Program-made: the position numbers and the translations under genes
The notes under the pieces: generated by a model
Seen by the model: only the letters and a program-made list of their open reading frames with translations
What the model was told of the DNA's origin: nothing
Database searches by the model: none
NCBI RefSeq assembly: GCF_029227915.1
Contig: NC_079883.1
Span: forward strand, 14,570,001-14,634,000
Length of the DNA: 64,000 bases
Direction of reading: 5' to 3'
Origin: Hydractinia symbiolongicarpus
Taxonomy: Eukaryota > Cnidaria > Hydrozoa > Anthoathecata > Hydractiniidae
Part shown: piece by piece, positions 20,901-63,999 of the stretch
Position numbering within the stretch: position 1 is the first letter of the stretch
Layout: each line of letters opens with the position of its first letter

Positions 20901-22018
20901 TAAAGATATCCATTAAACAGAAGATACATAGAAAGAAATTCTTTTGTACAACTTATTGTCTCGCGACAAACCACAGAATTGACGTTTTAAAAAGACCTTT
21001 TTATCTGTCATTCGTTGTGTTTATGACACCCGCGCATGCGCAAAGAGTAAAAATAATTCCACCACTATCGTGTGCGAACTATTGGCACGTAACTTGAGAT
21101 TTCAATCAATCAATTAAATAATCACATGAAAGTACAGCTCAGTTATATTTACCTCAATTTCTATTATTCATTTTTCCATCCACACCTTGAAGTTTGTTTA
21201 TCAAAAGAATAACGAAAAAAAGAAACCTGGGTTTAGAAACTAAAATAAAACAAAACGGGCATTAAACAATTGTTTTTCTTGTTTTTAAAAACATGACTAA
21301 TTTTCATGGAGGAATAGTTAGAAAAGAAAACTTTTTCGAAAAAATTTTGACTTCATTTTAAAACTTCATTTTCATATATTGAACACAGTTGAAAAGAGAA
21401 CCGTAGTAATCATTTATGCGTAGTTATTCCCTGCTGAAGATCTATTTAAAATTCAATATTTTTTCTTTTCAATTTTAGTCCATTTATATTCACAACAAAA
21501 GGATCTTTTAGATTTACAATGAAACGCTAAAGCAATTTTTATATTCGACCTTTTTCTTCTTGAATAATAATTTTCATTAACGTTGTTTTTTTTTTATCAA
21601 AGTTTATTCAAGGCAAATTTATAATATTGAAAAGTATTGCACGTTTCCAAAAATGAAGATAAAACTTTAAAAATCTTTTTTTTCTTTTGTTGTTTTTATA
21701 AAAGAATCTGAACTACAGAAGAGAGAAAAGACAAAACACAAAAAAATTCCTACTATCAGTCAAAACACATGTAAGATATATATAAATGGCTTCACATTGG
21801 AAATACTACATTTTAAAAAATAACTAATTTACCTGGTGTATTTATATGTAACTTTGTTGCTTTGTTTTCTTACTCTGGGATAGTGAATATGAATAAGATG
21901 AACCATTATGAACAGGGAAATTTTAAAAAGAAAAAGAGAACAAATTCTGAAGGAATTAGGAAACACAAACAGCATTGAGTTATCACGGTAAGGACAGTGT
22001 TATGATATAGAGTTTATT
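14914..22018. other. Gene desert, part 1
   Basis: No coding region with family resemblance or exon-like splice pattern is seen. A minus-strand open frame at 18121-18489 (122 codons) is unrecognised. Near 19700-19940 the phrase 'AGGGGCGT(T/C)' recurs several times in a degenerate repeat. Confidence 0.45.
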
Positions 22019-22306
22019 TTTCTTCTTCTTCTTCTTCTTCTTCTTCTTCTTCTTCTTCTTCTTCTTCTTCTTCTTCTTCTTCTTCTTCTTCTTCTTCTTC
22101 TTCTTCTTCTTCTTCTTCTTCTTCTTCTTCTTCTTCTTCTTCTTCTTCTTCTTCTTCTTCTTCTTCTTCTTCTTCTTCTTCTTCTTCTTCTTCTTCTTCT
22201 TCTTCTTCTTCTTCTTCTTCTTCTTCTTCTTCTTCTTCTTCTTCTTCTTCTTCTTCTTCTTCTTCTTCTTCTTCTTCTTCTTCTTCTTCTTCTTCTTCTT
22301 CTTCTT
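22019..22306. repeat. Uninterrupted TTC/GAA trinucleotide repeat, about 96 units
   Basis: The tract reads TTC without visible interruption for about 288 bases on the plus strand (GAA on the minus strand). It is flanked by ordinary AT-rich DNA and lies in no recognised gene. Long pure GAA/TTC tracts are known to form triplex (H-DNA) structures and to be length-unstable. Confidence 0.97.
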
Positions 22307-43471: not shown

Positions 43472-43876
43472 ATGTTTTATAATGTTGCTAAAGCGACAAA
43501 AGATAGAGAAAAAGAAAAATATGCAGATGATCGTAAAGGGAGAAGACATAATCGACAACGGCTTATTGAGAGCGAAGCAAATATGGATCCAGGACTTTGG
43601 GGTAGAAATTTACATAACCGTTCAAGAAGCAAAAGCCCGCGTCCCCCAGATAGCAGGGGTGCGTCTAGGTCACGTAGTAGGGCTCGTAATGGCTCTTTTG
43701 TAGATGAAGGTGATGAAACTGGAAGAGATGATCAAGAACATATTGAAGATTATGATAGTACTGAAGAATATGGCGAAGGCGATTATGGTGAGAGTGATGA
43801 AGATGACGATTTTATGAGCGTACCAAAATGCATGTTGGGACAACCTCTAAAAGATGCTGACAGTGGACAAGATAAT
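43472..43876 (+). CDS. Nav exon 1: cytoplasmic N-terminus with Arg-Ser and acidic segments
   Basis: The exon encodes 135 residues before a GTGAGT donor in phase 0. A basic start is followed by an Arg/Ser-rich stretch ([11 protein letters not shown] ... RSRSRARN) and then a strongly acidic run ([16 protein letters not shown]). The conserved Nav N-terminal cytoplasmic segment TFVVVANK resumes in exon 2. The RS/acidic arrangement is unlike the vertebrate Nav N-terminus and may be phosphorylated. Confidence 0.88.
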
Positions 43877-46800
43877 GTGAGTTAACTGGTTTATTTTCTT
43901 CTATTTTTATAATTTTGTGACCTGTTTTCTGATTATGTATTGTTCGTTTGTTTGTTAATGTTGCTTTGTTTTGTTTTAATTTCTAATTATGTTATTTTTA
44001 TTTGCATATTTAGTTTCTCGCCTTTTATAAAAAATCAACACTTTTCTTTGTGAGAAAATCAATTATTTTCAAGAAAACTGCTTGACAGAGTTCCAAAATT
44101 GTTAGTTTTAAAAGTAAAAATATTGTGGACATTAATACCATGATTTGTTCTTCAGCTTTTAACAATGTTATTTTTCTTAAATGTTCCCTTGAACATTTAA
44201 ATTTAATTTTAGAATCACGCTAAAAAATGATTCTTAAGTCGTTTCGGATAAGTTAGCGTGAGAAAAAAGTTATTATCGTGACGTCACGAGTCAAGCTTGC
44301 GACACTTTTATGTTATCACGCTTAAGAACACGAATTAATTTTTAAATATTTCTAGATAATTTCTACACATTTTACATGACTTTTTATATGTGAGAATACT
44401 TCGTGAAATCAGGCTAATAGTAACGGCCCATATATATGATTTACCTTGAAGATTTTTATAAGTATTGGTAAAAGAATTTGAAAATTCTGAGTAGATGTGA
44501 CCACAGCGTGCTTTTAAGATTTTTTACATGCATAGCATCTGGAGAATTTTATTAATGCGATGAGAAAAACTTTGAGTTATCCTAAATTTCGTAAGAGGCT
44601 CTTATTTATATTTTAAAACTAAAACCGCAAATATTTATTTTTCCCTAAACTTAAATTATATTTTCTGCTGAAGTATTTAATAATAAACAATACATTCTTG
44701 CTCGATTACACAAACTAAAAGTGCGCTTTTTTTGGTGGCACGAAATATAAAGAGTGGTTGAAACCTTTAAAAAGACTGAAATAGCTTAAAATATAAATAA
44801 CATTAGATTTTCTGTTTCATAAGTTTTGACCGTGGGATAAGTGATGAAAGGGGGATAAGAAAAACCTGACCAATCACACTTCTGACCATTATTCTTTAAA
44901 CATCAGACCAAACTTTGTTCCGCAAATTACACAGAATAGACTAGAAAAAAACGACGAGCCATGCTGAATTTTTCATCTCCCTCACTTTTTATATTCTCCT
45001 CTCTTCTATACTTCCATTAAATTTTAACGATTATCACTTCTCAGATAAAGCGATTTCAATAATTCACAATACACGAGTAGAAAAAAAAAGAAGAAGACAT
45101 TCTCCCTGAAAAATGCGAGTTTTAACACGTGTGAAAAACTTAAATCTAATCTAATATAAAAAGAAGATAAAGTCAAATTTATAACATATAATTCCCGACG
45201 AGATAAACATTTCCAGAAATGTAGTTTTGAATGAAATAATAGATTAGGTTTGTCGTTTATTTACTGTCGCCAGCAATTTTTTTGATCTGATGTAATCAAA
45301 AAGTACGTCAAAAAACATGTTTTACTGAATATTTAATTAATTAGTAAATTCTTTTTTTACATTTCTGGGAACTCTAAGGTCATACGTACTGGTTTGTCCC
45401 GCTTTTTGTCCACTAGCAAAGGATACAGAAAAAAGAAATGAACGTGAGGACCGCAATAAAAAAATAGAATAAAATCTGAAAATCAAAGTTCAAGAAAACA
45501 AAAAAACTGGAACAACCAAAAATGCCCATTTTGCTAGCAAATTTATACCAATATCCATTATGTCGAAGTCTGAAACACTCGCTTTCCCAAAATTATGTAG
45601 TCATGTTAGTTATTCCGGCGTGGACTTGTTCAATCTCTTCCATAGAACTATAAAAAAGCACAGAACCGTTGAGAAGCAAATAGTCCTGGCAACGAAGTTG
45701 CGACTAATTTTCGTGTTTTGCCTTATGCCTAAATTCACATTTCCTTGATGAAAGGATAAACGCAAACGTTTTTTTTTATCACAAAATCACAGAATTTTTT
45801 AAATTCACTTCCAATAACTTTAAGAGAAAACCACTCCTGGTAAAATGGAAACATTTGAGGTCTCAAAATATTGTGCCTTACTGGTTTCTACAAATTAAGA
45901 AACAACTCTTCTTTGCCTTTGACGGTAACAAATGTTGGATTGACAACTAGTCAATCAGGTACAACAACCACCTATGAAATTTGAATACCCTGGAAGACTA
46001 AATTTTGCTGCTTTCTAACTGTAATTTTTCTTTCTAGACGTTTGTGGTGGTTGCAAACAAACTTGGGAAACAAGTTGTGTTTCGATTTTGTAAAGAAAAA
46101 TCTTTGTTTCTCTTTGGCACGCAGAATGTACTACGAAGAATTAACATATATATATTTACTCATCAGTATCTTTTCATGATGTTTTTATACCATTTCTATG
46201 TGTTTCGTGCTTACGCTACATGTCACTAACTATTTTTATACATCATGTACCAGACTCTTAGGATGCAAAATCGCTTCTGAGGAAATTATATATTGTCTAC
46301 CCCTGTGCCTACCATCAATCAAAAACGATGCAATATATGCATTTCAAAATCCCATTGTTGACTGTATTACTTACGCAGTCTGGTAAAAAAGATACGGAAG
46401 CGCTAAATAAAAAAACTAGAAGGCTTTGTTGTTTTCTACTTTTTAAATAACAGGTCTTTTGAGAGATTTTTGTCTTTTTATTGAGTACTTGTTTCCCTTA
46501 ACTCTTCATTCAGATACTTTGAAATAGGTATTCTGCTCACCATTGTAACGAATTGTGTGTTCATGGCACTACAGAATCCTCCAGAAATATCAGAGTATGT
46601 ATAATTTTCATCACTCTACATCCAGAATAAAAATAGTTGGTCTTGAGATTTTTTATTTCTAAGAAAACAACAAGAATAGATTCCTTATCTGAAAAATGTT
46701 CAACTAAGGTTGCGAGTATAATACATTCTTTATTTGTAAAATCAGAAATTTCCCAACTTCAATCCTAGGGCTTCTTTTTTGCGACTGCACAGATCAGAAA

Positions 46801-49800
46801 GTAAAAACGAAATTCTAAATACAGAGTGGGAATTCTCCATAACAACTCCACCTAACGATAATTGGCAGAGAAAAAGGGCTGATTGTTATTTGTTGAATTC
46901 ACCATTTTCGTTTGTTCACTTATCTCTTCTATTTTTAGATACATATTTGCAGCTATTTATACTATGGAGATGATCGTCAAAATTTTAGCTAAAGGTTTTA
47001 TTCTCCATAAGTATTCTTATCTCCGCAATGCTTGGAATTGGTTAGACTTTATCGTCGTAATATTAGGGTAAGAGTTTTGAGATTGTGCACATTTGATTTA
47101 GTAGAATTTGTTTTGCACATCCAGAGAAGGAGTATGGACTGAGGATATTGACATTCTTTTAAGTATATCTGGTGCAACTCCTAATGGATATAATTATGCA
47201 CCTCCCCAGAAAAATAAATTGTTATTTAACTCTTGTCAGAGTTGATCTGTCGAATTCTTTGTACAATTATCATCACTGTTATCTGATAAAATTGGAATGT
47301 GTTTGTTTATTTTTTTGTAGGTATGTTACCATGCATCCTGCAGTCAGTGATTTGAGTGGTATAAGAACGTTTAGGGTTTTGAGAGCATTAAAAACTATAT
47401 CCACTGTAAAAGGTGTGTAGTAGTCTTTCTTTTCCTGATTAATGTTTTTAGCACAAATCTATTGTAACGTTTGGTTTAAGCCTAAACCGGTGTGGAAAAA
47501 CAAATCTGTTTCATTAAAATACAAATCCGGGATATTCGGCCATCTTTCGTTACATAAAAAATTATAGAATGTTCCCAACATGTTTAAGAATCTTTAACTA
47601 CAAAACATCAAATGCTTTTATATCGTTTCTTCTCTCATGAGAAAAACACGTATGCTTGGGTGTATAAACTCATCCTCCCGTATTTTTATAGGTTTGAAAG
47701 CCATGGTGAACACGCTGTTAAAATCGATGAAGATGATGACGGATGTTCTTATACTAACTTTATTTTTTATATCAATCTTCGCTTTAATCGGTTTGCAGCT
47801 TTTCCCTGGCAAACTGCGTTCAAGATGCGTCAGGAATCATGCTAATTATTCAGTGTTTCACGAAAGTTACTACAGTAAGCCTGGAAACATTCTCCTGCAT
47901 GAGGGACAGGAAGTGATATGTGGGAACGCGTCCACAGCTTGGTATGTTTTTAGCAATTGGAATCCGTTGCACTAATATGTGACTAATCCGAGATTTGTCT
48001 TTCTTGACAATATAATACAAAGAAAATAACGAGGCGATGGATGGGAGGGAGCAATTTTTCTGTTTTTCCCTTAACTAATGAAATGTCATAGTCTTATACG
48101 CTAGCTGTGCATTGCTGCACTCTCGGATTGTATGTGCTGAATCTTGTTATAGGATATTAATTATTAAACTCGTGGATCTGTTTACTTTTTTGCCAATGGT
48201 TACCAACGTAGCCAATAGGGATTATTCACTTGAACCATAAAAGATTTTCACGTTCTTAATTCAGATTCTTTAAAGTTTTGATAATTCGTTTTTATTTAAT
48301 GAATTTATCTCCTTTTATGCAATAAGATTAGCAATCCAAATTAACAGCTCAACCAACTAAAAAATTTAAGAAAACTTGCAGGTCATATCTTCTTATTAAA
48401 CAGGAGCAAATTTCATTCAGAGATTTTCGATATTTCTATAGAAAAAGCTATAGAAATATCGAGAAATAATTCTGTAACAAAATCATCTTCCATAACAGAA
48501 ATATAACGCTTCCAGTATCTCAATTTTTGTGCATTTGAAAACAACCTGTCCTTATATACTTAACTTGACATACTTTGAGATTTTCATTAGCAGCATTTTT
48601 TTTTCTTTTAGGAACTGTCCCAGTGGTTATACGTGTACACCGGGTATCGGTGAGAACCCCAACCAAGGATACGTAAATTATGATAACTTTTTGAGCGCTT
48701 TGCTCACATCGCTACAAGTGTGTACTCTTGATTATTGGGAAAGTGTTTATAACAGCGTAAGTTAACCATTTTAACTTGTGGAATAACTCGCAAAGCAGAA
48801 ACTCTGACGTTTAGATTTTACACCCCGTTTTTTTACCATAGATTTAAATCAAAAAAATTCGCCTACATTTTCGGACAAAAAAAATCGGACAAAATTTTAG
48901 TCACCTTTGAAAAACTTTCGTCAGACTAATAATTTTCTCTAAATAACAATTTTATCCTTTTTTAAAAATTTCTCAGACTACATAATATAAGGATAAAAGC
49001 TCTTTTCACTGTGCGCGTAAGGTTTAAAAGGACAATTTTCAAGCAAAGAAAACCACATTTACGAAGACCATTAGTGAAAAACAGAAAATGGGACAAAATT
49101 ATTAGTCAACATTTTAGTCACTTCCAAAAATGTTAGTCACTTTTGTCCGATAAGGTATATTGAAATCACCAGCACCCAGACATACGCTCCTGTGATGCGC
49201 CTGAACATCAAATCAAATCAAACTACTTCCTATTCGCTGTAACCAACCATTGTTGATGAATTTACACAGTTTCTGACATGTCTATATAAGCTACACCTGT
49301 TTCCTATAGGTACTGGCTGCCATGGGAGAAATCTACATGATCTATTTTCTACTGGCCGTATTTCTTGGTCCATTTTATCTACTTAATCTTGTACTTGCCG
49401 TCGTTAGCGCTTCCTATGAAATGGAGGTTAATGGCTGCCCAGATGAAGTAAGTTGTCCGTTTTAAGTAACATTAAACTTGTAAGAAAATTTAACGAGTAG
49501 TTGAAATGTCTAACTCCATGAAACAGCTACTTTGACGAGGCGTTACAAAAAGAGACATTAATCTACGATCGATGCCTTAACTATGTTTTTAACCCATGAC
49601 TTTTGGTTAAAAATTTATTGTTTTTTTTAGGATTTCGAGCGCGAAAAGGCTGCCAACATAAGGCGTTCAGCATCAACATATTCTTTCGATGGTGACAATT
49701 GCGTGGAGTTTCTTCACGGCCCTTCACCAGTTGAAGAAATAAACGACGGGGAAAAACGCTACACGGTCCAAGAGGAATCGCCGAAGAAGAAGAAGAAACC

Positions 49801-52800
49801 AAAAACTCCAGACGATGACAAATTTATGCCACCCGAACCTGGCGAGAATCCGACATGCAGGGCGAAAATGCAATATTTTTTCTTCAGAATTGTGTCCAGT
49901 TCTCCGTTTGAAGGTTTCATAATTGCTTGTATCATGTTAAACACCATTCTCATGGCAATTGAACATTATGGCATGTCAAAGACATTAGAGAAAATTTTGG
50001 AGATCATGAACTACGTAAGTTATTTAATTATAAATTTTATATTATATTAAAGTTAAAAGGTTTTCCATTTCACAACCCTGGGTTGGGTGCAAGAAAGAAG
50101 TACAGCATCCGCACTTCAGTTTTGAGTAAAGAACTAGTTATCCTGAATTTTAGACCTCCACCACGTTGTATTACAAACGCTTTAAAAGATACTCCTAAAA
50201 TGGTTGCATTTTATAGGTATTTACTGGCACATTTATCCTTGAAATGTGTGTCAAACTGTTAGCATTCACGCCGCGTGGTTATGTGAGAAACAAATGGAAT
50301 GTCTTTGACGGTTTCCTCGTAATGGTGAGCATAGTGGATATTTTGTTGTCAAGGACAGGTGCAGTTAAAGGGAATCAGCTCAGTGTGTTGAAAGTATTCA
50401 GATTGGTAAGTTACTATTGGTTTACTACTTTAATGCTTGCATTTGATTGGTTGAGCCAGTTTACTAGGTGTCCTATGAAACTAGCTAGTTCTTCTACCTA
50501 CTGCTTTATAATTGGTAAATCATGAAAAAAAACTGAAAGCATTGTAACGCTGCTTTTTCTTAACACACATTATAATAAGTAATTAGAAAGAGATGAGTGT
50601 GATTAGATTTTTGAGTTTACTGTTATGTTGCGCTTTAGCACAATTTGTATAGTAATAATATGGTTTAGAGAGCTATTTGGGATTTATCTGTGATGTTGAC
50701 AAAATTGCTCGAACTTAGTGAGTGCAATTTTGTCAACATTACAAATGATACGAGAAAGCATGTTATTCCGTGTTAATTATATGATTAAAAATTATTTTTT
50801 GTAAGGATTTAGTTCACCTGAAGTGTATTGTTGTTTTCTTTTTTCTCTCTAAACTTAGACCAGCTTCCCTAAGAGCTAATCCATGTTTTCGTATTCGACT
50901 TTGTATTTCGGTTATTAGCAACTGTTACATCATCAACATTTTGTGCATTTTTGTGTGTCTGTTAACATAAGTAATTTAATTACTCCGATGGTTCAAAATA
51001 AAGCTGTTCCGCAACCAGATTAAACAGAATACAGCTATCTTTATAAAGACTATAACCCGTGAAAAATGAAGGCTCGCCTGTGTTTAAAATCCTACGGATA
51101 ATAGCCCATCAAAACAAAGTGGATAGAAATGTATTGCATTTGCTATTTCGTGAAATAAATCTGCAGTACTACCAGAAAATACAAGTAAAAACATATCAAA
51201 TCCGACTATGGCCATTCTAGGAGAACAGAAAATGTCTATCCTTCTACAGTGAGTTTGCTAAAATCAAAATATCCTATCACTGTATGGGTATAAATAAAGA
51301 CTGAAAAAATATATAAATCTTAAAAATCTGTATCAAAAATTATTTCTTGCATATAGATGAGAGTGTTGAAACTTGCACAATCCTGGAAAACAATGGGTCA
51401 ACTTTTGAGCACAATTGCGAGTAGCATGGGTGCACTTGGAAACGTCACAGTTATTCTAGGTTTGATCATATACATCTTTTCTGTCGTTGGAATGCAGTTG
51501 TTCGGGAAATATTATAAACCGACGGACTACGCTCCAATAAAAGCTGGTGCAAAGCTATTTCCACGATACAACTTTAGCAATTTCGGAAACTCCTTCATGA
51601 TGATATTTCGTATTTTATGTGGAAAATGGATCGAACCGCAATGGGATTTACTGGCAAAAACAAACATCGGATCAATATTTTTTATATTCTTTGTCTTTGT
51701 GATTGGGAGATGGGTGGTAAGTTGATTTTATTTAACGAGATTAATTTTCGCGAATGGGTACGACGTGAATTTTTTTTGCAAAGATTGATTTTTTGCGAAT
51801 CGTAGACAATGATAAAAATTTTCAAGAGAGTTGCAGAAAGAACAAACAGTTGTATATTAATATAATATATATGTTAATATAATATATATAATAATTATTT
51901 AAAATATTTAAAGTTTAGTAAAACTTTCACGGATATTTATTTGCGACAATAATGCTTTTTTATTTTTTCGAAGAAGAAGAAAAGTTGCGAAAATTAAGCT
52001 CGCAAATAATTAATCTCGTTACAGATCAACCGTGCTGTGTGTTACGTCTTAAAGTGTCGGGTTATAAACTCTTAAAGATCTTAAGGAGATGTCTATTTAT
52101 ATTATCTTTCAAGGAAATAAGACTCCAGTCTTCCAGACCACATTTCTTGATAAAATAGTTACTTAAATAAATACTTTGTTGACCATTTTTTCAGGTCCTT
52201 AATTTATTCCTTGCGTTGTTGTTGAGTTCATTTGGTGGAGATGCGCTAAATGGTGGAAATGATGGAGATTCTGAGAAACCTAAACAAAGCAGATTGAAGA
52301 GATTAATGGAATGGGTTAAGAAGAAAAATAAAAAAAAGAACAAGGATAATACAATAGTAGCATCAAACGCTGCGGATGATGTACCGCCACCTGAAATTAT
52401 GGTAATCAATTTTGTTTTTAAAAAGAAATGAAGAAGTTTGAAGCGTTTGGTGAAAGTTTTATGGATACTGCCATGCGTTTTCCCTTGGTTAAAAAATATT
52501 GAATAATTTGATAGTCATTTAATGGAAATTTTGTTTGTTACTTTTTTAGCACGTGGAATATAACGGCGATACTTTAATACTTGATGGTAACGGTAATAAA
52601 AGAAAAATGTCAGAAGGTGAGTTTCTTCTTCTTCTTTTTCTTTTTCTTGTTCTTCTTTTTCTTTTTCTTCACATTTCTTTTTCACATACTTTCTCTTTAG
52701 TTGATCAAAATGGAAGTGATATCAAATCAAGCTACAGAACAGAACCTTCAATACAAAATGGAATTACACCAAATGGAGATATTTTAAAACGTCGTTCGTC

Positions 52801-53973
52801 CGTAGACACAGAAATACCGATCTCTGTCACTACAGAAGCTTTTGCGCCTGGAAAAACGCAAATTGGCCGTAATTCTTCGTCTTCCGTAGAAATAGAAATA
52901 CAGCGTGAAAAGACATATGTTGATGATTGCTTGTGCACTATTTGCTACAAATGCAGTTGTTGTTACACGAGTTACCTAAATTCACCTCTGCGTCGTTCTT
53001 GGCACAATGCAAGATTTTACACTAAACAACTTATTGAACATAAATATTTTGAAGGAATCATTTTATTTCTTATAGCGTTTAGCAGTTTAACTTTGGTAAG
53101 TCAAGTCGTTTTGTCTTTACAAATAAAATTAAAAAACCCTCATGTAAGTTCCTTGAACTGGACAATAGCATTTATAATCTTTTTAGATTATTTTTATTTC
53201 TTTTTTAGGTTTTTGAAGACATAGATTTACCAAACCGTCCGAATTTGGAAGCGTTTCTCTATTACTGCAACTACTTCTTTGCAGTTGTATTCACGTTAGA
53301 ATTTCTTATCAAGCTCTTTGCACTTGGTTTTGTAAAATATTTCACAAATTTCTGGAATTTATTGGATGTCTTTATAGTTGTCGTAAGTGTTTCGCGCCAT
53401 TTTGAAAATATTTCTATTCTTGTCGCGCCGAACGACTCAGCACTTTGAATTACTTTTAGATATCACTCTCCTCCTTGTTTGGTCCAAAAAATTTAAAAGC
53501 ATTGCGTTCACTAAGAGGCTTGAGACCGTTAAGAGCCATATCAAGATTTGAAGGAATGAAGGTATGGTTAATAAATTAGAAATATTTTTGTGATATGTTC
53601 TTGAATTTTTTTAAAATTACTTCATTATTTTACTTAAATGTTTTGATGTGTCATAAAAAATATATCCTAGGGAAGAGAGCGGAATAACTGTTTTATAACC
53701 TTTAACCTGGCGATAATAAATCCGAAATGTTATCTAGTATATTTTAACAACTGGTAATTAGCCCGTGGAGAAATCCATGTGATTACCCGTCCTTTAACGG
53801 AATATCATATTTTATATTTCGTGTGCTCGTAGCACGATTTTTTTCTGACATATTAGTATACGACTACTAATAAAGATAGTCGTTAGCTTGTGGAATAATC
53901 CTCAGGCTCGCCGTCCTTTTTATACCGCATCGCGTGCGTCTCGCTACTTGCGCAGCTAAGCTACAATTTGCGT

Positions 53974-54012
<39 letters not shown>

Positions 54013-57000
54013 GTATACGGGCATTATAATATAAATGAACCCGTAGAAAAATCCACGGGGTTGCCCGTCGCGTTCGCTCGTCCTTTAAATTTACCAGTCG
54101 CAACAAAGTGGATAAAAATATATTGCATTTGGTATTGATGCGCATTTTAAAAATTTCGTGTTTCCGTTACGGGACACTGCTTTCGCGGCCACACAGACAG
54201 ACAGACGACGGCTATTATTAAAGAGAAGACTTCGTACGTTTCAGGTTGTCGTGAATGCATTATTGTATTCAATCCCATCCATCGCCAATGTATTGCTCGT
54301 TTGCGTGGTATTCTGGTTAATCTTCAGTATCATGGGATACAATTTATTCGGTGGACAATTCTGGTATTGCATTGATGCTAACGGCAATAAATTGAATTTA
54401 TCAGTGATTGACACAAAAGCTGATTGTCTCAATGAAACAAACCAAGCACTAAATTACACCTGGATCAACAAGAACATTAATTTTGACACTTCCATCAATG
54501 GATTTCTTGCGCTCTTCCAAACGGTAAGCGACCAACATATTTTTTTAGGAACACTTTTTATCTCATTCTTGTCCGCAGCAATTCCGGCGCGAAAGTGCGT
54601 TTATCGATAAATTTTATTCTACAAAATTTACGACGACAACATCAACACCTTATCGACATTGTTTTCGTGTCAACAAAAAAAACAGATAAAAATATTACCA
54701 TCTTATTTACGTCGACATCGTTAACCGTCAAGTCGTCAAAAAAGATCGATTAGGTATAATTTGCGTTGTTTTTATTATGCAATTTTAGGCCACGTTGGAA
54801 GGATGGTTTGAAGCAATGGCTGACGCACAAGATATCCGAGGGGTAAACTTTATTCTTATCTGTCCAATCTCGTCCAAAACATATTGATTGCAGAGTTTTC
54901 TATACAATTTACCTTTGCGTTTGTACCGTTATTACTAGTTGATAATTTTTTTAATTTTTAGGTAGAAAAGCAACCTGGTTACCAGGAAGCGTTTGAAAGC
55001 CAGATCTTTTTCGTCGTTTTTATCATACTCGGAGCATTTTTTATTTTGAATTTATTTATTGGTGTTATCATTGATAATTTTAACCGTTTGAAACAACAAT
55101 ACGAAGATGGTGTTGGAATTTTCCTGACACCTGGCCAACGCAACTGGATAAATACTCTCAAGGCTGCTTCGTTAAAAAAACCATCAAGAAGATTGACAAG
55201 ACCAAAGGTGTGTATTCTTTTTGAGATTTTGTAGACTCATAAAGAGCAAAAAACTTTGTACGGAATAAAATTGAGTACGGAGTGAAATTGAATGCTGAAC
55301 GTAGATAGACACCTAATAAATCTGTGTTTTTTGAAGAATAAATATATGTGATTTTTTAATGTAGTGTACACTGTACTCAGAAAAAATTGTTGTCTAACAC
55401 TTGCGTATTTTATAATCGTTTTTACCGCCATTTTGAATTTAATTTAATTTTTCTACCCCCATTTTTTAATTTGCTTTATTATTTTTAGGCAAAATGGAGA
55501 GCAGCATTATTCGACTTTATTCACACAAAATACTTTGAATTTTTCATTATGTCTGTTATCCTCCTTAACATGTTAACGATGATGATCCAACATGATAGAC
55601 AATCTGACGAAGTGACATTAGCATTAGAATATTTAAATTACTTGTTCACCGGTATCTTCACCATCGAAGCAGTGGTTCGACTGACCGCTATGAGACTGGA
55701 ATATTTTAAATACGGCATGAACGTGTTCGATTTTGTAATTGTTGTTTTTTCTATAGCTGGTAAGTTTTTTTTTTTTCGTTTTACTTTTTTATTTCGCAAA
55801 TATTTAACAAGTCTTTGGAGAGAGCCAATCTCGTCCCCAGTGTTTGTAAGGTGTTTATTTGGACGGACTTTCATCAAAAATGTAAAAAGGTCTTACAAGT
55901 CCTGGGGACTAGGTTAAGGGTCAGCTTATTTTTGTCTGGCTATTTGTTGCACCGCAAAAGGTCAAATTTGTTCATATTAAATTTAAAGAAAGCTTTCTAA
56001 CTATTAATATGCACAAATATATGTATAACACATAAGTTTAAACACGTAAATTAAATTAGAGTGTAACTTTGAGGTTAACTAAAAACTGTGACATGATACA
56101 AAGAACACGTCGCAGGAGAGTTACTATAAGTTCCGCTACACGGATTTGTTACGTATAAACAAACACCCCGTGGAGATGGATAAGAGGACCAACAGCACGC
56201 ACATATGCACGCACGCACATTAGTTGCACGATAAAGCACGATAACGCACGTTGCACGTACAATAACGATGTGGAAAATATCCAGAACATGCACACAGGTA
56301 GGAAACCCGATGCACTTTTTTCTCTTTGTTTTTTGTTTACATACCTTCGTTCCTAGGAATTTTTGTCTTTTTGATAAAGGGGCTGGGAACGAGGGTATTG
56401 ATTTTCTCTTACGACTGCACAAGAACGCGGAGAAAATCGTTTAACTCAGCACTTCAATAAAAAATTCTAAGATTTGATTTTTTCTAGTATTTGTCCATAA
56501 AATGAAACAATCCTTATACCACTAACAAATCTTTTTTATATTTCCTCGTTTCAGTTATAATTATGGATTGGTACGAACAAGATTTCATTATTTCACCTGG
56601 TTTATTTCGCGTCGTCCGTGTTTTCCGCTTGGGAAGACTGCTCCGTTTCTTCGAAGGCGCAAAAGGAATTCGCAAACTTTTGTTTACTATTGTAAAATCG
56701 GCACCTGCATTAAGCAATATCGGCACCTTATTGTTTTTGATAACATTTATATACGCCATTATGGCTATGAGCATTTTTGGACGACTAAAACACCAAGGTT
56801 ATATAAACCAAGTGGTTAACTTCGAGACTTTTGGAAGCAGCATGTGTTTACTATTTAGAATATCCACGGCTGCCGGTTGGAACGGCGTTTTGGACTCAGC
56901 AATGGTTCAGCCACCGAAATGTGACCCGAATTTAGACATAGGGGCCACTGTGACTTCGGGAAATTGTGGCCATGAGCTAATTGCAGTCTTGTTTTTTGTT

Positions 57001-57750
57001 TCGTATATCATTCTGATTGTTTTGATTATCATAAATATGTACATAGCAGTTATATTAGAAAACTTCAATCAAGCACAATCTCAAGACGAGGCTGGAATTA
57101 CAGAAGACGATTTAGAGGCGTTTTATGTAGCCTGGGAAGAATTTGATCCCAAAGCAACACAATTTATAAAATACAGCCAGTTACCAGATTTTATAGATGC
57201 ACTAGATGGCCCGTTAAGGGTGCCAAAACCAAACTATTGGTTCTTAGAAGAGGGTGATATCTCCATAAAAGAACGACATCGCTGTCATTGTCTCGATATT
57301 ATGACTGCATTGATTAAGAGAGCGCTGGGAGATGCAGCTGGAGGTGAGAGCAAAGATTTAGAGAGCGTTTTAAAGAAGGTGGAGGAAAAATACCGAACTA
57401 TATTCCCACAAAGAACCAAAGAAATTGCTATAGAGACAACACGCGAGCGCCTAAAAACGGAAAACTCAGCCGCAAGGCGAATCCAGCGTGTTTTCCGAAG
57501 ACATTTACTAATGGACGAAATTGCGCTCATCGCGAATTCTCGAAACATGAGTTTAAGAGCACGCGAAAAAAATTTATCGAAGATTGAACAGTTAGTTACG
57601 GTGATGTGGAAAACACAAAGAAATAACCCAGATGCTGATTCAGAGAGTGAATCAGAAGATGAAGAAGGAGGGGAGAGCGAAGGAGAGCATGAAAAAGGTG
57701 AATCTAACACGGAACCTCCTCAACAGGTAGCCGAGACGTCGGAAGCGTAA
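43472..57750 (+). CDS. Voltage-gated sodium channel alpha subunit, D-K-E-A filter (21 exons, isoform A)
   Basis: This is a four-domain, 24-segment plasma-membrane channel. Exons: 43472-43876, 46038-46165, 46514-46594, 46939-47067, 47321-47412, 47692-47941, 48612-48756, 49310-49447, 49631-50014, 50217-50405, 51357-51716, 52195-52401, 52550-52616, 52701-53095, 53209-53382, 53460-53561, 54245-54523, 54789-54842, 54962-55207, 55489-55759 and 56555-57750. All junctions are GT-AG and phase-consistent, giving 1763 residues. The ATG is preceded by an in-frame TGA at 43463. Filter residues are D402 (TLDYW), K737 (CGKWIE), E1179 (TLEGW) and A1472 (TAAGW), the medusozoan Na+-selective pattern. The domain III-IV linker has IFL (1246-1248) where vertebrate Nav has IFM. 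RRSSV in the II-III linker is a PKA-type site. The C-terminus has an EF-hand-like region and an IQ motif (1675). The last exon has an alternative at 60470-61686. Confidence 0.95.
43877..46037 (+). other. Nav intron 1
   Basis: This 2.2-kb intron is flanked by phase-0 sites. It contains a 12-bp perfect palindrome with a CRE core at 44277-44288. I see no exon-like sequence; a 62-codon frame at 45560 is not supported by similarity. Confidence 0.75.
44277..44288. promoter_or_regulatory. Palindromic CRE-like site in Nav intron 1
   Basis: The 12-base perfect palindrome cgtgacgtcacg contains TGACGTCA. It lies 400 bases into the first intron, where enhancers are common. Binding by a CREB/ATF factor is inferred only. 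Confidence 0.4.
46038..49447 (+). CDS. Nav domain I (exons 2-8)
   Basis: Exon 2 ends in the pre-S1 segment [12 protein letters not shown]. Exon 3 holds S1, exon 4 S2-S3 ([12 protein letters not shown]), and exon 5 the S4 voltage sensor ([18 protein letters not shown]). Exon 6 holds the S4-S5 linker, S5 and the extracellular turret, which has NHANYS and GNAS glycosylation-type sequons. Exon 7 holds the P-loop with filter Asp in TLDYW, and exon 8 holds S6 ([15 protein letters not shown]). Exon phases run 0, 2, 2, 2, 1, 2, 0, 0 and all join in frame. Confidence 0.92.
48427..48462. repeat. Perfect 15-bp hairpin in Nav intron 6
   Basis: The arm tcgatatttctatag (48427-48441) is exactly complementary to 48448-48462 across a 6-base A-rich loop. 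The intron is transcribed, so the RNA could fold here. No known ncRNA is recognised. Confidence 0.6.
49631..52401 (+). CDS. Nav domain II (exons 9-12)
   Basis: Exon 9 carries the I-II linker, with RRSAS and a KKKKKPK cluster, and S1. Exon 10 covers S2, S3 and the start of S4. Exon 11 covers the rest of S4, S5 and the pore with K737 in CGKWIE, where vertebrate Nav has Glu. Exon 12 completes S6 ([14 protein letters not shown]) and enters the basic start of the II-III linker. All four exons are phase 0 at both ends. Intron 11 contains a TIR element. Confidence 0.92.
50693..50739. repeat. Perfect 16-bp hairpin in Nav intron 10
   Basis: The arm atgttgacaaaattgc (50693-50708) is the exact complement of 50724-50739 with a 15-base loop. 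It could be a very short foldback element or a structured intronic RNA. Confidence 0.6.
51733..52021. mobile_element. TIR element in Nav intron 11
   Basis: taacgagattaatt (51733-51746) is matched inverted at 52008-52021. Sub-terminal 'TTTTCGCGAA' and 'TTGCGAAAATTAA' segments also pair. The interior is non-coding. It shares its arm sequence with the foldback at 59251-59360. Confidence 0.6.
52550..55207 (+). CDS. Nav II-III linker, domain III and inactivation linker (exons 13-19)
   Basis: Exons 13-14 encode the linker with a KRRSSVD PKA-type site and a cysteine cluster ([12 protein letters not shown]) before S1. Exon 15 has S2-S3, exon 16 the S4 sensor ([16 protein letters not shown]), and exon 17 S5 and the turret with two NxT sequons (NETN, NYTW). 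The 54-bp exon 18 holds the filter Glu in ATLEGW. Exon 19 has S6 and the III-IV linker with the IFLTPGQ inactivation-gate motif, followed by KKPSRR. Confidence 0.92.
53757..54225. repeat. Cluster of 'CCCGTGGAAAAATCCACGGG' family repeats in Nav intron 16
   Basis: Three related units start near 53757, 53880 and 54039. Each has a 'CCCGTRGAAAAATCCAC' head and a 'CCGTCCTTT' segment; unit 2 ends in a GACA microsatellite and unit 3 in CAGACAGACGACGGC. Partial relatives occur near 25590, 33059, 36985, 40830 and 51055. The third unit ends about 20 bases before the exon 17 acceptor. Confidence 0.6.
53974..54012 (+). repeat. GACA microsatellite
   Basis: About nine and a half perfect GACA units lie within the repeat cluster of Nav intron 16. 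Confidence 0.9.
55489..55759 (+). CDS. Nav domain IV S1-S3 (exon 20), the shared donor exon
   Basis: The exon encodes S1 ([14 protein letters not shown]), S2 with TIEAVVRL, and most of S3 ([11 protein letters not shown]). It ends in phase 1 (a lone G) before GTAAGT. Both downstream terminal exons, at 56555 and at 60470, supply the two bases needed to complete the codon in frame. Confidence 0.93.
55827..55914. repeat. 'CCTCGTCCCCAGG' foldback in Nav intron 20
   Basis: Arms aatctcgtccccagtgtttg and an inverted partner ending in cctggggactaggtt pair over ~23 bases with a few mismatches. It lies in the intron where the choice between terminal exons would be made. A shorter related pair is at 56349-56396. 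Confidence 0.65.
56555..57750 (+). CDS. Nav terminal exon A (domain IV end of S3 to C-terminus)
   Basis: The acceptor TCGTTTCAG precedes the exon, which joins exon 20 in frame. It encodes the acidic S3-S4 paddle [11 protein letters not shown]4 ([17 protein letters not shown]), S5, a P-loop with Ala in TAAGW, and S6. An EF-hand-like region ([20 protein letters not shown]), an IQ motif ([10 protein letters not shown]) and a highly acidic Ser/Glu tail follow, ending in TAA after SEA. Poly(A) hexamers follow at 57770 and 57948. Confidence 0.93.
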
Positions 57751-57769
57751 CTCGATATTTGCACGATAA

Positions 57770-57953
57770 AATAAATCAACTTAAAACAGCTAATACCAAA
57801 CTTGCAGCAACAAAAAAGAGAACACCATTTTTTCAGAAAAAAAAGAAAAGAAAAGAAAACACATAACAACAGTTAGAATTTTCGGGTTATCCCAAATACA
57901 TTTTACGAGGATGGTACGATACTACTCGATAAGATACGAAGTGGTAAAATAAA
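57770..57953 (+). terminator. Candidate poly(A) signals after terminal exon A
   Basis: AATAAA occurs at 57770-57775, only 20 bases past the stop, and again at 57948-57953. Use of either would end the isoform A transcript before terminal exon B. Confidence 0.45.
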
Positions 57954-58484
57954 AGTGCTGTAATGTAATTGCCGTACTTAAAACTATCGATTTTTTTAGA
58001 AAGGAAAACTCGTTATCATCGATTTAAAGCGAGCGAAATAAGACTGGATATTGTTTTTGATATTTCAAAAACAATATTCAGATACAAAAGAAACCTCTTA
58101 ACATAGGAAAGTCGCCTCGCGCAGTAAGCGGGCCTGCTGCTTTTTGATACTTCGTGTAAAAATCCACTTTTTAAAAAGTAGCTTCGACCTAAGAAAACGT
58201 CGTGATAAACGTGTAATTTAAACATGATCAAACAAAGAAGAAAAACCTTTTAAAATTAAAGCTTAAATACGCAAAACTTTCATATACCCCTGACTAAAAA
58301 AATAAATATTAATCTTGTATTTATTTATTACGTCATAACTGCTTTTTAAGTTGTAATTTTTTTATATATTATAAATTTAATGTAGTTAAGTCAAAGCATC
58401 CTGCTGTGTTATTTCTGACGATCCTAAATCTCTTCTGAAGTTAAAATTCAAACTTACGCTGGTCTTTCAAGAGGGGGGAGAGAA

Positions 58485-58502
58485 GGGGGGGGGGGGGGGG
58501 GG
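58485..58502 (+). repeat. Run of 18 guanines
   Basis: This homopolymer follows another G-rich stretch (GGGGGGAGAGAA), unusual in such AT-rich DNA. Its true length may be uncertain, because homopolymers are error-prone in sequencing. Confidence 0.9.
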
Positions 58503-59250
58503 ATTGCATTATATTTTATTTAAAAATAAATTAGGAAGAAGAAGTCAGAACACAGTCTGTAACACAGGCTGTGCAACAAATTGCAGAGGGGTCACACAAA
58601 CCCACTTAAAACAAGTATAATAAAACAATTTTGCTTTCAAGAGCAAACCAGCGTCTTTTTTTGACGAATAAATGTTTGACTCGGGAATGCAATTTTGTTG
58701 GATATATTAGACTTGTTGAAAGCTGTAGTGAATAAGTTCTACTTTCGTAATAAAAATAAAGTTTAAAAAGATATAAAACAAAAAAATAACGAATCAATAT
58801 TACAGTATAAAAAAATATAACATTTAAAATTACACTTAAAATAATAGTAATAATAAATGGCCTACATAAAACTTAAGCCAACAAAATTATTTTAGCTGTC
58901 ATGTAATGAAGTACACTCTTCGGCTTGTACACGTTCTTTAAAAGCAACCCCATTTTGGGGGTCAGGCCTACTGGGGTGGGGCGTTTTTGGCTCTCAAGGT
59001 CGCTTTGTACCTAATTTTATGAGTACTTGTATCACGAACCTTTGCTCTCGGATAGTGTTTGTGAGCAGTGAATCCAACACACAAACTTTTTTCTCCAAAA
59101 CACACTCATAGGTATTTTGGCCACTTCTTAGTTTTGCATGTGTTTGCTATTCAGATAAAGATTGGATTTAGAGAACCCAACACATAGAAATTAAAAAAAG
59201 CCATTTCAACAACTGTTTCTCATTTTTCTTAAGGGAATTAATTTTTCAAG

Positions 59251-59360
59251 GGAATTAATTTTCGCGAATTTCACGAGTTTTGGGTCAGTTTCGCAGTAAT
59301 TAGTTTCACCAAAAACTATTGGGTAACTCGCTATTCGCAAAATTCGCAAAAATTAATTCC
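59251..59360. mobile_element. Foldback element with 20-bp arms
   Basis: ggaattaattttcgcgaatt (59251-59270) pairs with aattcgcaaaaattaattcc (59341-59360) with one mismatch. The interior is non-coding. The arm resembles the ends of the intron 11 element. Confidence 0.65.
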
Positions 59361-60326
59361 TGTAAGGCACTTGACGGTGATGTGAATTATCCGTCAATGT
59401 GGACTTAAAATTTTTAGATGGAATAAACGTTTTCAGATTCAATTTTCAGATTTATTTAACGAAAATCTAAATTTTAAAATCCTAAAATAATATTTACACT
59501 GCTATTCGATTGGAAGTCAAATCGATTCAAAAACAATGAAAACACACTCTGGTGTACTTTAAACCAAACAGACTACCACAGAAGTTTATTTAAGGCTGTA
59601 TATTTGTTCCAGACCTTAAAACCCTTTGAGCCATCAAAGTCTAATATGGTACAGTCAACTAGACCATGCAAATCTGTGTGACGGCTGTTTGAGGGGGAAT
59701 ATTTTAGAGGAAATTTTTTCACGATTTTATTCTTAAATTGAAAAATCGCGTACTCCAGAGGGTGTAAGCAAATGGATAGGGAAGAAAACATGGATATTTT
59801 AGGAAAAGCTTTCTTTGAATATTTTCATCATCTCAAATAGGTTTTCGTGTTTGACTACAACACAACCAGGATTAAAATTATGGCCGCTTTATAGAAGAAC
59901 TTGTTGAACTTACTCGCAGGACAAAAAAAAACTTCTAAAAATGAAATTTCAAAAACTTTTCACTACACACTCTTTCATAAGAATCAGTACAATCCGACCT
60001 AGTCAAATTTTAGCATGGCTTACTTTTTTCTCAAATTTCTCAAAATTTAGGTTTAAATAAAAAAGTTTTTTTGTTGCTATTGGTCCTTATAATTGTGTTC
60101 ATAAACAATCGAGAAAGAAAAAAAACGACCAAGAACAATCATTAGCTTGAGAGAGAATATACATTCTGGATTGTTCTTATTTAAGGGCAAAATTTAGACT
60201 CGCCTTGCTCAGTTTTAAAAACAATGATTCAGACCTGAAATTGTTCTTATATTTTGACAAAGTCTGAAGCGCGTGTTCTTATTGTTCTTAAAGAAAGCGT
60301 GTATGTTAATGCATAAAATCAATTTT

Positions 60327-60425
60327 ATTGACACAATAAATCACAAACTTCGTGCCGTTATAATGTTCTATGATTGGTTTAGAACTCTACAATTTCTACT
60401 ACGGCTATCAAAAGGGGCGCCAAAA
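60327..60425 (+). pseudogene. Possible relic of a non-LTR retrotransposon reverse transcriptase
   Basis: One frame reads FIDTINHKL ... FYDWFRTLQFLL ... KGAP. The order recalls the DT(V/I)NH ... DWF ... GVPQG elements of LINE reverse transcriptases, but with large internal losses. The piece is short and the resemblance is by eye only. Confidence 0.25.
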
Positions 60426-60469
60426 GAGGATTTTGATTGTAAGATGATAATATTTACGTTGTTTTCTAG

Positions 60470-61686
60470 ATATCATCCTGACACAAATGGAGATTAAAAT
60501 CGGTTTATCACCTGGTTTATTTCGAGTTATTCGAGTGTTTCGCTTGGGTCGTCTTCTTCGATTTTTCGAAGCTGCAAAAGGAATCCGTCAGCTTTTGTTT
60601 ACTATTTTGAAATCTGCACCAGCATTGAGCAATGTGGGTACATTACTTTTTTTGATTTTATTCATCTATTCGGTCATGGGCATGTCGATATTTGGAAGAT
60701 TGAAAATGAATGGAGCGATAACACCTGTCGTAAACTTCCAAACCTTTGGAAGCAGTATGTGCGTGTTGTTTCGAATCGCAACAGCTGCAGGCTGGAACGC
60801 TGTGTTGGATGGTGCTATGGTTCAACCGCCTAATTGCGATCCAAACTTGCCTATTGGGAATGGAATTACCCAAGGGGACTGTGGAAATCAAATAGTGGCA
60901 GTTCTTTTTTTCGTTTCGTATATCATGTTAATTGTTTTGATTATAATAAACATGTACATAGCAGTGATATTGGAAAATTTTAATCAAGCACAATCTCAAG
61001 ACGAGGCTGGAATTACAGAAGACGATATCGAGGCTTACTACGATGTCTGGCAGTTATACGATCCGAAAGCTACGCAATTCATCCGATATCAGGAGACATC
61101 GTCGTTCCTTAACGCGCTTGAACCACCGTTTCGCATCCCGAACCCGAATTACTGGTACCTGGAAGAGCAGAACATACCGATGAAAGACGGGTATAAAATT
61201 CATTGTTTAGATTTGTTGATGACGCTGATAAAACACATCATAGGTGACGATAAATGTGTGGAGAGTGAGCACACGAATGAGATTATGAAGAAAGTGAACG
61301 CAAAGTACAAAGTAAAATTTCCACAGCGGTTCAAAGAAAACACGATAGCTACGACAGATGAGCGCCTTAAAATCGAAAAACATGCCGCAGAAACGATCCA
61401 ACGCGTTTTCCGTTGGTATTTATTAAACGGTCATATTGAATCGTTCATAAATTCCACCGCACAAAGTAACAACATACAACTACATCGAAAGTTTAAACAA
61501 ATCGAAGCGCTCTTCAAGGTTATGTTAGAATCAAAACGCAAACGTATGGAAGAACAAAGGTTAAAAGAGGAAATGGAAAAAGAAAAGGAACGTGAAAAGT
61601 TGCTCCCGCCACAAACTAACGACGACTCGTCTGGTGAATACTACATGGGAGATGAAGATGATATCGTGGAAACACCGTTCCTTTAA
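60470..61686 (+). CDS. Nav alternative terminal exon B (second copy of domain IV end of S3 to C-terminus)
   Basis: A GTTTTCTAG acceptor precedes AT, which completes the phase-1 codon of exon 20 and keeps the frame open to the stop at 61684-61686. From the exon start, both the filter Ala (offset 318) and the IQ motif (offset 927) fall at exactly the same distance as in exon A. The two copies therefore have no net indel over more than 300 codons. S4, S5, P-loop and S6 are nearly identical. The S3-S4 paddle (LTQMEIKIGL), the IQ surroundings (IQRVFRWYLL) and the tail differ; here the tail is a Lys/Glu/Arg helix ending ETPFL. I see no upstream copy of exon 20 or earlier exons, so a separate channel gene is unlikely. 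Isoform B would be 1770 residues. A non-expressed duplicate remains possible. Confidence 0.85.
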
Positions 61687-63399
61687 ATCGTTTACTTTTT
61701 GGGTGCCCTGGTGACTATGAAAGTGGGTAAATCGATTTGATACGTTAGAATACGACAAGACACGATAACATGCATTGCGTTATATTTCTTTAGCATCGTG
61801 CAAATCACTTAAAGCTTGGAAACATAAGCTTACATTCTGTTATGGCAATGCCATAAATAGAAAAGCCGTAAAATCATAAAATGAGATTTTGAACAGAAAG
61901 TTTACATTTTTCAATATAACAGAGAGAGAGCACACAGAACTATAAAACACAAAACGCCACAGTCACAAAATTGAAATATATCAACGAAAAAAAAAGGTAT
62001 ATATATAATATGTAAAAACATTAAAAAATAAGAATCTATTTTTATATTTAATTTTGTAAATTGCAGGCTTAATCTTTGTTGTCATGATAAAAAAACTGTT
62101 TTTGTCAAACATAAATTATCAGCTTCATATGAATTCCGCCAAAGCTAGTGACACGTGGATATAGCTTTATAAATCGTGCGCCTATAACATGAGCTGTACC
62201 AGCTGAACTCGATAAAATGTTTTGTAAAAATCTAACTTTTAGAATGTCTACCTAGGTCGTAACACGTATATTGAAAATGACCCTTCCTTCTTCCCCTTTC
62301 CCCTCCACCCTACCCCTTGTACAAGTAAAATTTCAATAATTACTTTGTAACCACATGGACAGATGAGAGAATGAAAAAATGATATTAACCGATTTAACTC
62401 CTTTTTATTATAAAAAAAATTGTGCTAAATTTATTTTCGCACAATTGTTAATTTTACGAAGATATTTAAAGTATTTGATAGGAGTGAAAAAAAAACTGAA
62501 TTGAAACCACAGAATCACTTTGGAAGAGACGGAGCAAACTGGTTGTGAACCCTGGTGGGACGGTAGAGACGTATTAGAAAATATCCCCAAATTTAATATC
62601 CTAAAATTTCCATTGTTTTCGCCTTTTGTTTTTGTCTTTAAACAAGATTTCTGGCCGTCCGCTACAAAAACATGGAGCACTTTCAGATGGGAAATTAAAA
62701 CTCTCTTTCGTATGGACCCCTATTTTTACATCTTACAGTTGGGTGGCCAAAAGTTATGACCATTACACGGCATGTCCTTATATGGATATCACTGCGACGT
62801 CTCATCCTTCAGAGAATAACCCTGTTAGCATTACTTAGTTTTCATAATTTTAAGAGTGCCAAACACAAAAACAACTTCTGTAGTTTGCATAAAAACGTTT
62901 TATTTGCAAAAAATTATCTCTTGTGCAAACCAATAACTCTCGCGAGAATTTTTGGTCTACAAATCGCACATCTGAAGATTATACGGTTGTTTTAACTTGC
63001 TTTATACAATATAAACCATTCTGCGAAAATTTTCCATTTTTGTATGCGCAAAAATACAGCATTTTTTTCCATTTCTGCGCACTTACTTCTTTCTGTGTCC
63101 TAACCTACAGTTCCTTCGTTGTTCGTTTGGAAACAGTCCAGTCCCGCTATCTAAAACTCTGAATAGACCAGACAAAAATTCGAGATAGCGCGATGTTTGA
63201 AATAAACGAGAGTAAACTGAACATTCATTTTTAAAAGCTAATTTGATTTTGACCCTAATAAAACTATCAAATGTTCGGTATCCGCAATTTTTTTTTAGAA
63301 AAATAACGTTTTTCGCAAAAATACATTATTTCGGATGACGTCATTCCGGGACGCTCAAACGCAAATATTTGGTACCGTTCAGGTTAAAAAAAATCCTTT
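61687..63399. other. Intergenic region between Nav exon B and the WSB-like gene
   Basis: The two genes converge here. No coding sequence is recognised. Overlapping open frames at 62408-62759 on both strands have no family match. Confidence 0.5.
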
Positions 63400-63999
63400 C
63401 TATAAATGTCTAAAATACAGATATTGTCGCAAATTTTCAGGTATGTCCAGATTTTCAATGTCATCTCTAGTTATGCAGGTTAGCAGTTTCAGACGGCAAA
63501 TTTCCTTTAACTTTGTCATTCTTGGTAATTGCCAAACCGTAAGTAAGCCTGCACTTGACGAAACAATCAATTCTTGGGAACTGGAAGAAAATGAAGCATA
63601 ATTCGCACTTACACCTTCAGAAACGTCAAAAGATGATAACACATACAGTAGGTTATACTCGTTTAGTGGTGAAAAAATATAAACTTTGGCATAACTTGAG
63701 CATACTGCTAGAAAAGCACCGTTGTTGGAATATTTTACGTGCGTTATACACTCGTTATCGTTCAGTAGGTTCAAATGTTGCTTTTGAACCTTGGCATTCG
63801 TATGATTTATGAAAAATAATGTCTTGTTGTAGCCAATTAAGATGATTTGAAAAGAACCAAATGGATTAAATGAAAATATTATTTTCTGTTTGATTCTGTT
63901 TTCCACACCAATAAGTGGCAACAAGTTTACTGTTCTTGATGTAAACTCTTTTTTCTCACAGTCACAAACATCAGTAATTGTGAAATGACCGTCTGACAT
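63400..63999 (-). CDS. WD40-repeat protein with C-terminal SOCS box (WSB1/WSB2-like), 3' part
   Basis: The frame runs from the window edge to a TAG at 63400-63402. Diverged WD40 blades are visible: CITHVKYSNNGAFLAVCSSYAKVYIFSP, then YASFSSSSQELIVSSSAGLLTVWQLPR. The last ~38 residues form a SOCS box, with LKEICRLKLLTCI resembling the 'LQHLCR..IR' BC-box helix and LDIPENLRQYLYFR resembling the 'LPIP..L..FL.YR' Cul5-box end. Known WSB proteins use this box to bind Elongin B/C and Cullin-5, with the WD40 propeller recruiting the ubiquitylation target. The ATG at 63997-63999 may be internal. A full WSB has about seven blades, so the gene probably continues beyond the window. Confidence 0.8.
   Translation of the reverse strand: MSDGHFTITDVCDCEKKEFTSRTVNLLPLIGVENRIKQKIIFSFNPFGSFQIILIGYNKTLFFINHTNAKVQKQHLNLLNDNECITHVKYSNNGAFLAVCSSYAKVYIFSPLNEYNLLYVLSSFDVSEGVSANYASFSSSSQELIVSSSAGLLTVWQLPRMTKLKEICRLKLLTCITRDDIENLDIPENLRQYLYFRHL

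Follow-up and report, generated by a model that had tools for sequence, protein, structure and literature searches.

A Nav1 sodium channel gene of Hydractinia symbiolongicarpus with two candidate alternative last exons

Fast inactivation and calmodulin regulation of voltage-gated sodium (Nav) channels are governed by domain IV together with the C-terminus. In the voltage-gated channel Shaker of Drosophila, alternative 3′ ends that encode membrane segments plus the C-terminus alter inactivation. The locus described here resembles Shaker in having candidate terminal exons of that content; it differs in that Shaker is a potassium channel with a single-domain subunit and a shorter swapped part.

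Among Nav genes, the closest described systems are the S3-S4 exon pairs of vertebrates and insects (5N/5A, 6N/6A, and 18N/18A), which a 2026 review presents as mutually exclusive tandem duplicates, with one of two exons chosen at one position of the gene (PMC13011093). The likeness to Hydractinia is that of tandem duplicated exons; however, the S3-S4 pairs are short internal cassettes of domain I or III, whereas the Hydractinia pair would swap everything from IVS3 onward, together with the 3′ end. The review's table of VGSC splicing events concerns vertebrate genes and, in the part examined, contains no terminal-exon pair (PMC13011093). Splicing also alters the last exon of SCN5A, for which exon 28 variants E28B, E28C, and E28D are reported; E28D ends in IVS4 and is truncated and non-functional, whereas both Hydractinia ends are complete (PMC8019726). 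In other four-domain channels, duplicated exons swap part of one domain: the exon 15 and exon 31 pairs of NALCN and exon 12a/12b of invertebrate Cav3 are internal and change selectivity, whereas the two Hydractinia ends share the domain IV filter residue (PMC6259924, PMC4436565). Oyster Nav1 is reported to have variants in the I-II and II-III linkers. An earlier note on this DNA suggested that terminal exons with a voltage sensor, a pore, and the entire C-terminus were not a described mode of Nav diversity. That claim stands for paired terminal exons of a Nav gene that are both full-length and functional, of which the literature searched (with few subscription papers) yielded no report, and has to be narrowed elsewhere, since last-exon Nav variants are on record for SCN5A (PMC8019726).

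Gene structure and the two terminal exons

The window, i.e., the whole 64,000-nucleotide stretch that was analysed, is C9:14570001-14634000 of the H. symbiolongicarpus assembly (480.9 Mb, 76 contigs). Judged by its sequence, the channel gene it holds is a DKEA-type (cnidarian Nav1) sodium channel gene, represented on C9 by P0001, a protein recorded as 'sodium channel protein 60E-like isoform X2 [Hydractinia symbiolongicarpus]'. The filter motifs of P0001 in domains I-IV are TLDYWE, CGKWIE, ATLEGWF, and TAAGWN, giving D-K-E-A, the ring assigned to the cnidarian Nav1 filter (PMC6259924). The domain II filter residue is K, not the E of Nav2 (DEEA); the Nav2-type paralogue of the same species, P0017 on C1, has D-E-E-A. 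In the III-IV linker, a 12-residue stretch stands where an IFM inactivation motif is expected.

The gene model was rebuilt from domain I S1 onward, and two N-terminal exons were placed by means of P0001 (Table 1). Counting these two, the exon that encodes domain IV S1 to S3 is number 20, in agreement with the numbering of the earlier note. In P0001, the 1100 residues preceding the terminal exon are identical to the rebuilt model and the last 397 residues are those of exon A, confirming the join of exon 20 to exon A.

Table 1. Features of the sodium channel gene, in positions of the window
Feature	Position	Strand	Details
N-terminal exon (10-residue P0001 stretch to SGQDN)	43472..43876	+	P0001 residues located; splice sites approximate
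Second exon (11-residue stretch to FTHQ)	46038..46166	+	P0001 residues located; ends approximate
Seventeen exons, domain I S1 to III-IV linker	46514..55207	+	rebuilt gene model; individual ends approximate
Exons 1-6 of the seventeen	about 46514-46594, 46939-47067, 47321-47412, 47692-47941, 48612-48756, 49310-49447	+	
Exons 7-12 of the seventeen	about 49631-50014, 50217-50405, 51357-51716, 52195-52401, 52550-52616, 52701-53095	+	
Exons 13-17 of the seventeen	about 53209-53382, 53460-53561, 54245-54523, 54789-54842, 54962-55207	+	
Exon 20: domain IV S1 to S3, shared donor, phase 1	55489..55759	+	271 bases, donor TG|GTAAGT
Terminal exon A: end of S3, S4, S5, pore, S6, EF-like domain, IQ, stop	56555..57750	+	1196 bases, acceptor TTTCAG
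Terminal exon B: same module as A; IQ motif IQRVFRWYLL, C-terminus ETPFL, stop	60470..61686	+	1217 bases, acceptor TTCTAG
15-codon tract, DNA identical between exons	A 57067..57111, B 60982..61026	+	longest identical-codon run 15
First AATAAA after exon A, candidate poly(A) signal	57770..57775	+	A+T-rich stretch holds 12
First ATTAAA after exon B, candidate poly(A) signal	62020..62025	+	first AATAAA at 63201

Other genes in the window include, on the + strand, an Arf-family GTPase of 203 aa at 2622-3230 (PF00025, E 5.2e-43) and a single 637-aa frame at 4733-6643 with PARG catalytic domains (PF05028, E 3.7e-87; PF20811). A long trinucleotide repeat at about 21990-22330 has several open frames, which encode runs of K, E, R, L, S, or F. 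On the - strand, a beta-propeller-like protein, scoring below Pfam cut-offs, occupies 63403-63999 as convergent neighbour of the sodium channel gene.

As the earlier note had proposed, exon 20 can be joined in frame to either terminal exon: both joins hold the frame at AG acceptors of the same phase, and each exon reads through to one TAA, with 22-49 stops in the two other frames of the joined sequences. TAAGWN begins at 311 bases and the IQ motif at 926 bases in both exons, which places the filter Ala at base 318 and the IQ at base 927, the common offsets that had been reported. Each exon contains a complete distal domain IV and C-terminus module that matches solved sodium channels (best E 3.5e-101 for A and 1.2e-95 for B). 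The two align without gaps over the first 331 codons, and S4 gating arginines, the TAAGWN filter, S6, and IQ are retained in both. The pair thus has the features of duplicated, mutually exclusive exons (homologous, same phase, same position, tandem) and also two structural features of alternative last exons (one donor in frame with both, each with its own stop). In the Nav2-type paralogue on C1, a phase-1 intron likewise precedes the terminal module at this point, with the C-terminal part further split, and this same intron position argues that the terminal exon is an old module.

No copy of an earlier exon precedes B, as the note had also observed: tblastn (E <= 1e-3) found no Nav exon in 57750-60470, and likewise none in the 10 kb downstream of the window. 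These results bear on the possibility that a second Nav gene, with a promoter and 5′ exons of its own, follows in tandem and ends in B. In favour of such a gene, B has its own stop, forms a complete terminal exon, and belongs to a family distinct from A; but, besides the lack of Nav exons in these intervals, the genome matches include no other copy of B or gene ending in B (33 candidates scored), and the protein matches listed include no full-length protein with a B-type end. On this evidence, we rejected a tandem gene as very improbable.

Divergence of the two exons and constraint on exon B

Exons A and B are 64.2% identical in nucleotides (0.642 over 331 codons) and share 216 of 331 residues. 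Their differences at codon positions 1, 2, and 3 number 101, 61, and 193, respectively, third-position differences being 3.2 times second-position ones; the NG86 method gives a dN of 0.35 and no dS value. When A was carried to the observed nucleotide identity over the 331 codons in a neutral, substitution-only simulation (n=2000), no frame (0/2000) stayed open, stops averaged 16.0 and never numbered fewer than 6, and amino-acid identity fell to 0.359 on average. B itself has 404 open codons, an unbroken IQ motif and tail, and no indel in the first 331 codons. This pattern argues that selection maintains the open frame of B; together with the relatives described below, it shows B to be neither a recent nor a decaying copy.

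The same observations weigh on two further alternatives. First, B might be a relic exon, kept elsewhere and disused in Hydractinia, in line with its weak acceptor (see below) and with the lack of an annotated B isoform among the matches listed; the intact reading frame, IQ motif, and tail, and the excess of third- over second-position differences from A, count against a relic, and we rejected that reading as unlikely. Second, the assembly might have placed a diverged haplotype or a misjoined paralogue set behind the gene. The same genome does hold a 98.9% identical Nav2-type gene pair on C1, possibly a haplotype duplicate; but 36% of bases differ between A and B, the two are on the same contig in order and orientation, and B-type sequences are present in other data. 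An artefact, rejected on these grounds, is the most improbable of the alternatives.

Within the two exons, one 15-codon tract (45 bases) is identical in DNA. A run of 15 identical codons arose in 9/20000 permutations, and outside the tract the codons of identical A/B residues match in 97 of 201 cases. The tract is likely to reflect local gene conversion; nucleotide-level constraint is a possible explanation as well.

B-type relatives in other organisms

A protein search used exon 20 joined to B, with matches scored on the B part, among proteins of 272-866 aa; it returned exon-sized open frames. The best 120 of 899 such relatives at E <= 1e-60 (4973 candidates) were each compared with seven reference ends, and eight of these 120 score best against B: P0142, P0148, P0152, P0153, P0158 (by a small margin over the other references), P0165, P0179, and P0237. 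In a 35-row tree, Hydractinia B (HsymB) and all eight form a clade (96/96), a grouping to be read with a warning of long-branch joining. With P0158, P0165, and P0179 left out, HsymB and the five other B-type rows form a clade in a 34-row tree (97/96) and, with the long P0009 also left out, in a 33-row tree (95/99); branches in the B clade are long. A sister relationship of Hydractinia A and B is rejected (p-AU 0.00215 and 0.000838), as is moving HsymB from the other B rows to the hydrozoan-like A rows (p 0.00585, 33-row tree).

The deeper position of B is less sharply defined. In the 33-row data, the best tree joins B to the hydrozoan-like A rows with support of 55/21, a topology in which A groups together with B outside has p 0.33, and one that joins B to the other A group has p 0.079; the first tree, of 15 rows with HsymB as the sole B-type row, gave B no settled place. 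A and B lie within a medusozoan Nav1 terminal-region clade apart from Nav2-type rows (100/99 in the 15-row tree, 99/99 in the 34- and 33-row trees). The label 'scyphozoan-like' for P0004, P0006, P0008, P0143, P0144, P0146, and P0147 is a guess on our part. Residues common to HsymB and the other B rows number 12/61, no clear excess over control A rows (3/14 for HsymA, and 2/10, 4/24, 4/36, and 6/64 for others).

P0179 and P0237 are each recorded with a contig of 2,170,401 bases, so that a single contig of one species probably bears two B-type ends. The P0165 open frame starts ...NFST-DIALELM..., and its back-translated start would fit an acceptor TTYTCNACAG just before a phase-1 start, as in B. 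The earlier note had proposed a comparison with other hydrozoans and scyphozoans for a conserved second terminal exon; B-type relatives do occur in other organisms, and the tandem A-B position is known in Hydractinia only. The similarity scores and trees assign B to an old B-type family found in other organisms and, because it has such relatives, B is probably a real alternative channel ending.

Several further candidates were considered. A viral-contig scan with B gave 10 pattern matches, 0 of them confirmed. The high-scoring P0007 (Centruroides) was rejected as a B-type protein; its gene model repeats the same domain IV stretch. P0155, P0161, P0210, and P0223 are terminal-exon frames with a shortened pore-S6 stretch and without the usual CDP...CG cysteines. 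They lie near hydrozoan-like A rows, P0155, P0210, and P0223 grouping at 99/97 in the 35-row tree, and represent either another gene or a third kind of end.

The C-terminus carries two marks of B-type proteins. Specifically, among 353 proteins obtained through Nav searches, and hence mutually non-independent, an ETP followed by 0-2 residues at the end is present in five, all B-type (P0142, P0148, P0153, P0237, and P0158), and HsymB ends in ETPFL. The IQ-motif residue after Arg is Trp in six proteins, again all B-type (P0142, P0148, P0152, P0153, P0158, and P0237), and HsymB shares it; the residue at this place is Arg in 106/263 rows matching a loose pattern. P0165 and P0179 have no ETP tail and have Tyr at the Trp position. 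The end of P0152, LSLIHI, reads like a translated sequencing adapter, which we take it to be, with the true C-terminus missing.

An AlphaFold2 model of B (mean pLDDT 77.1, pTM 0.48) has a C-terminal domain that matches 6mba, the human Nav1.4 C-terminal domain with apo-calmodulin, at TM 0.83 by target, and the B model matches 4ovn at TM 0.74. The Pfam GPHH score of B, 26.8, is at the cut-off of 26.8 and that of A, 23.0, is below it; the IQ motif is present in both. B is thus predicted to carry a Nav-type, calmodulin-binding-type C-terminal domain. The earlier suggestion of a switch of calmodulin-type regulation gains from this prediction as far as the module is concerned; the switch itself would depend on splicing to B.

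Use of exon B and other channel genes

Use of exon A is documented by P0001. In three protein searches, the matches listed, Clytia and Hydra records included, contain no spliced or full-length protein with a B-type end, and the best 120 and 113 further proteins among them lack the IQ Trp and the ETP tail. Of exon-20-type fragments, a single spliced one was recognised, P0121, and it is A-type. The protein database was clustered at 90%, and one search scored only candidates sharing most words. A hypothetical B isoform would be 90.0% (1598/1775 columns) or 90.6% (of 1763 residues) identical to P0001 and, because of this identity, may be hidden inside the P0001 cluster. The counter-argument that the 1763-aa P0001 cannot represent a 1770-aa B isoform was dropped, the basis for choosing a cluster representative being undocumented.

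The acceptor of B scores 4.2 bits, above 3 of 17 verified acceptors (2.4-14.9), that of A scores 7.0, and 13 of 157 other AG sites in 57750-60900 score at least as high as the B acceptor. By these scores, the B acceptor appears ordinary to weak, and a weak distal acceptor with a stronger proximal one would suit default use of A and regulated use of B. Poly(A) hexamers lie behind both exons (Table 1); their chance occurrence is expected in such A+T-rich DNA.

We consider it probable that this is one Nav1 gene with two alternative last exons, A and B, chosen at the exon 20 donor. The donor would join the proximal exon A, followed by cleavage and polyadenylation behind A, or, with A skipped, would join the distal exon B. 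Either choice would yield a full four-domain channel, the two differing from the end of IVS3 to the C-terminus, i.e., in the S3-S4 loop, S4-S5, pore loops, S6, EF-like domain, IQ motif, and tail. Because S4 gating charges and the filter Ala are kept in both ends, the exchange would be likely to affect inactivation, calmodulin-type regulation, and tail-binding partners rather than selectivity. For the mutually exclusive 3′-terminal exons first proposed for this locus, the anatomy, the selection on the open frame, and the B-type family speak in favour; the proteins among the matches listed include none in which exon 20 is joined to B. We infer splicing to B, mutual exclusion, the choice of poly(A) site, and a functional difference between the two ends.

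A different use of B is conceivable, in which it is transcribed separately, from an internal promoter or by spliced-leader trans-splicing, and encodes a short S4-to-tail membrane protein that modulates channels. The acceptor of B is usable, B contains internal Met codons, and trans-splicing occurs in hydrozoans; but the first HsymB Met is aligned with other residues in P0153 and P0152, and a phase-1 start at a position identical to that of A is needed only for joining to exon 20. We therefore give a separate transcript a low probability, and return to the choice of last exon at the exon 20 donor.

If this early-branching animal does choose between last exons, a mostly single-gene lineage could make channels with different inactivation per cell, and two natural, co-evolved versions of a module on one channel body would offer a tool for dissecting module function. 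More tentatively, and with somewhat less than even confidence, we suggest that the Nav1 genes of medusozoans have an array of alternative terminal exons of ancient origin (A-type and B-type, with a second B-type in some species), which would make domain IV and the C-terminus swappable and let individual cells switch inactivation and the binding of calmodulin or partners. Such an array may date back to the divergence of the main medusozoan lineages and, if it exists, a single gene would fill the role that in vertebrates falls to several Nav genes. Because the B-type family is conserved, RNA data already available from several species could put the choice of last exon to the test.

Elsewhere in the genome, the Nav2-type (DEEA) gene is present in two copies about 3.6 Mb apart (C1:16559498-16574999 and C1:12948034-12963499) that are 98.85% identical over 15,536 aligned columns and represent either a recent segmental duplication or an unresolved haplotype. 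Two channel exon sets of nearly equal scores lie on C7 in opposite orientation (21793865-21809720, - strand, and 32983028-32999564, + strand). At C5:20706431-20710738, a single 1607-aa open frame with four Ion_trans matches is an apparently intronless four-domain channel gene.
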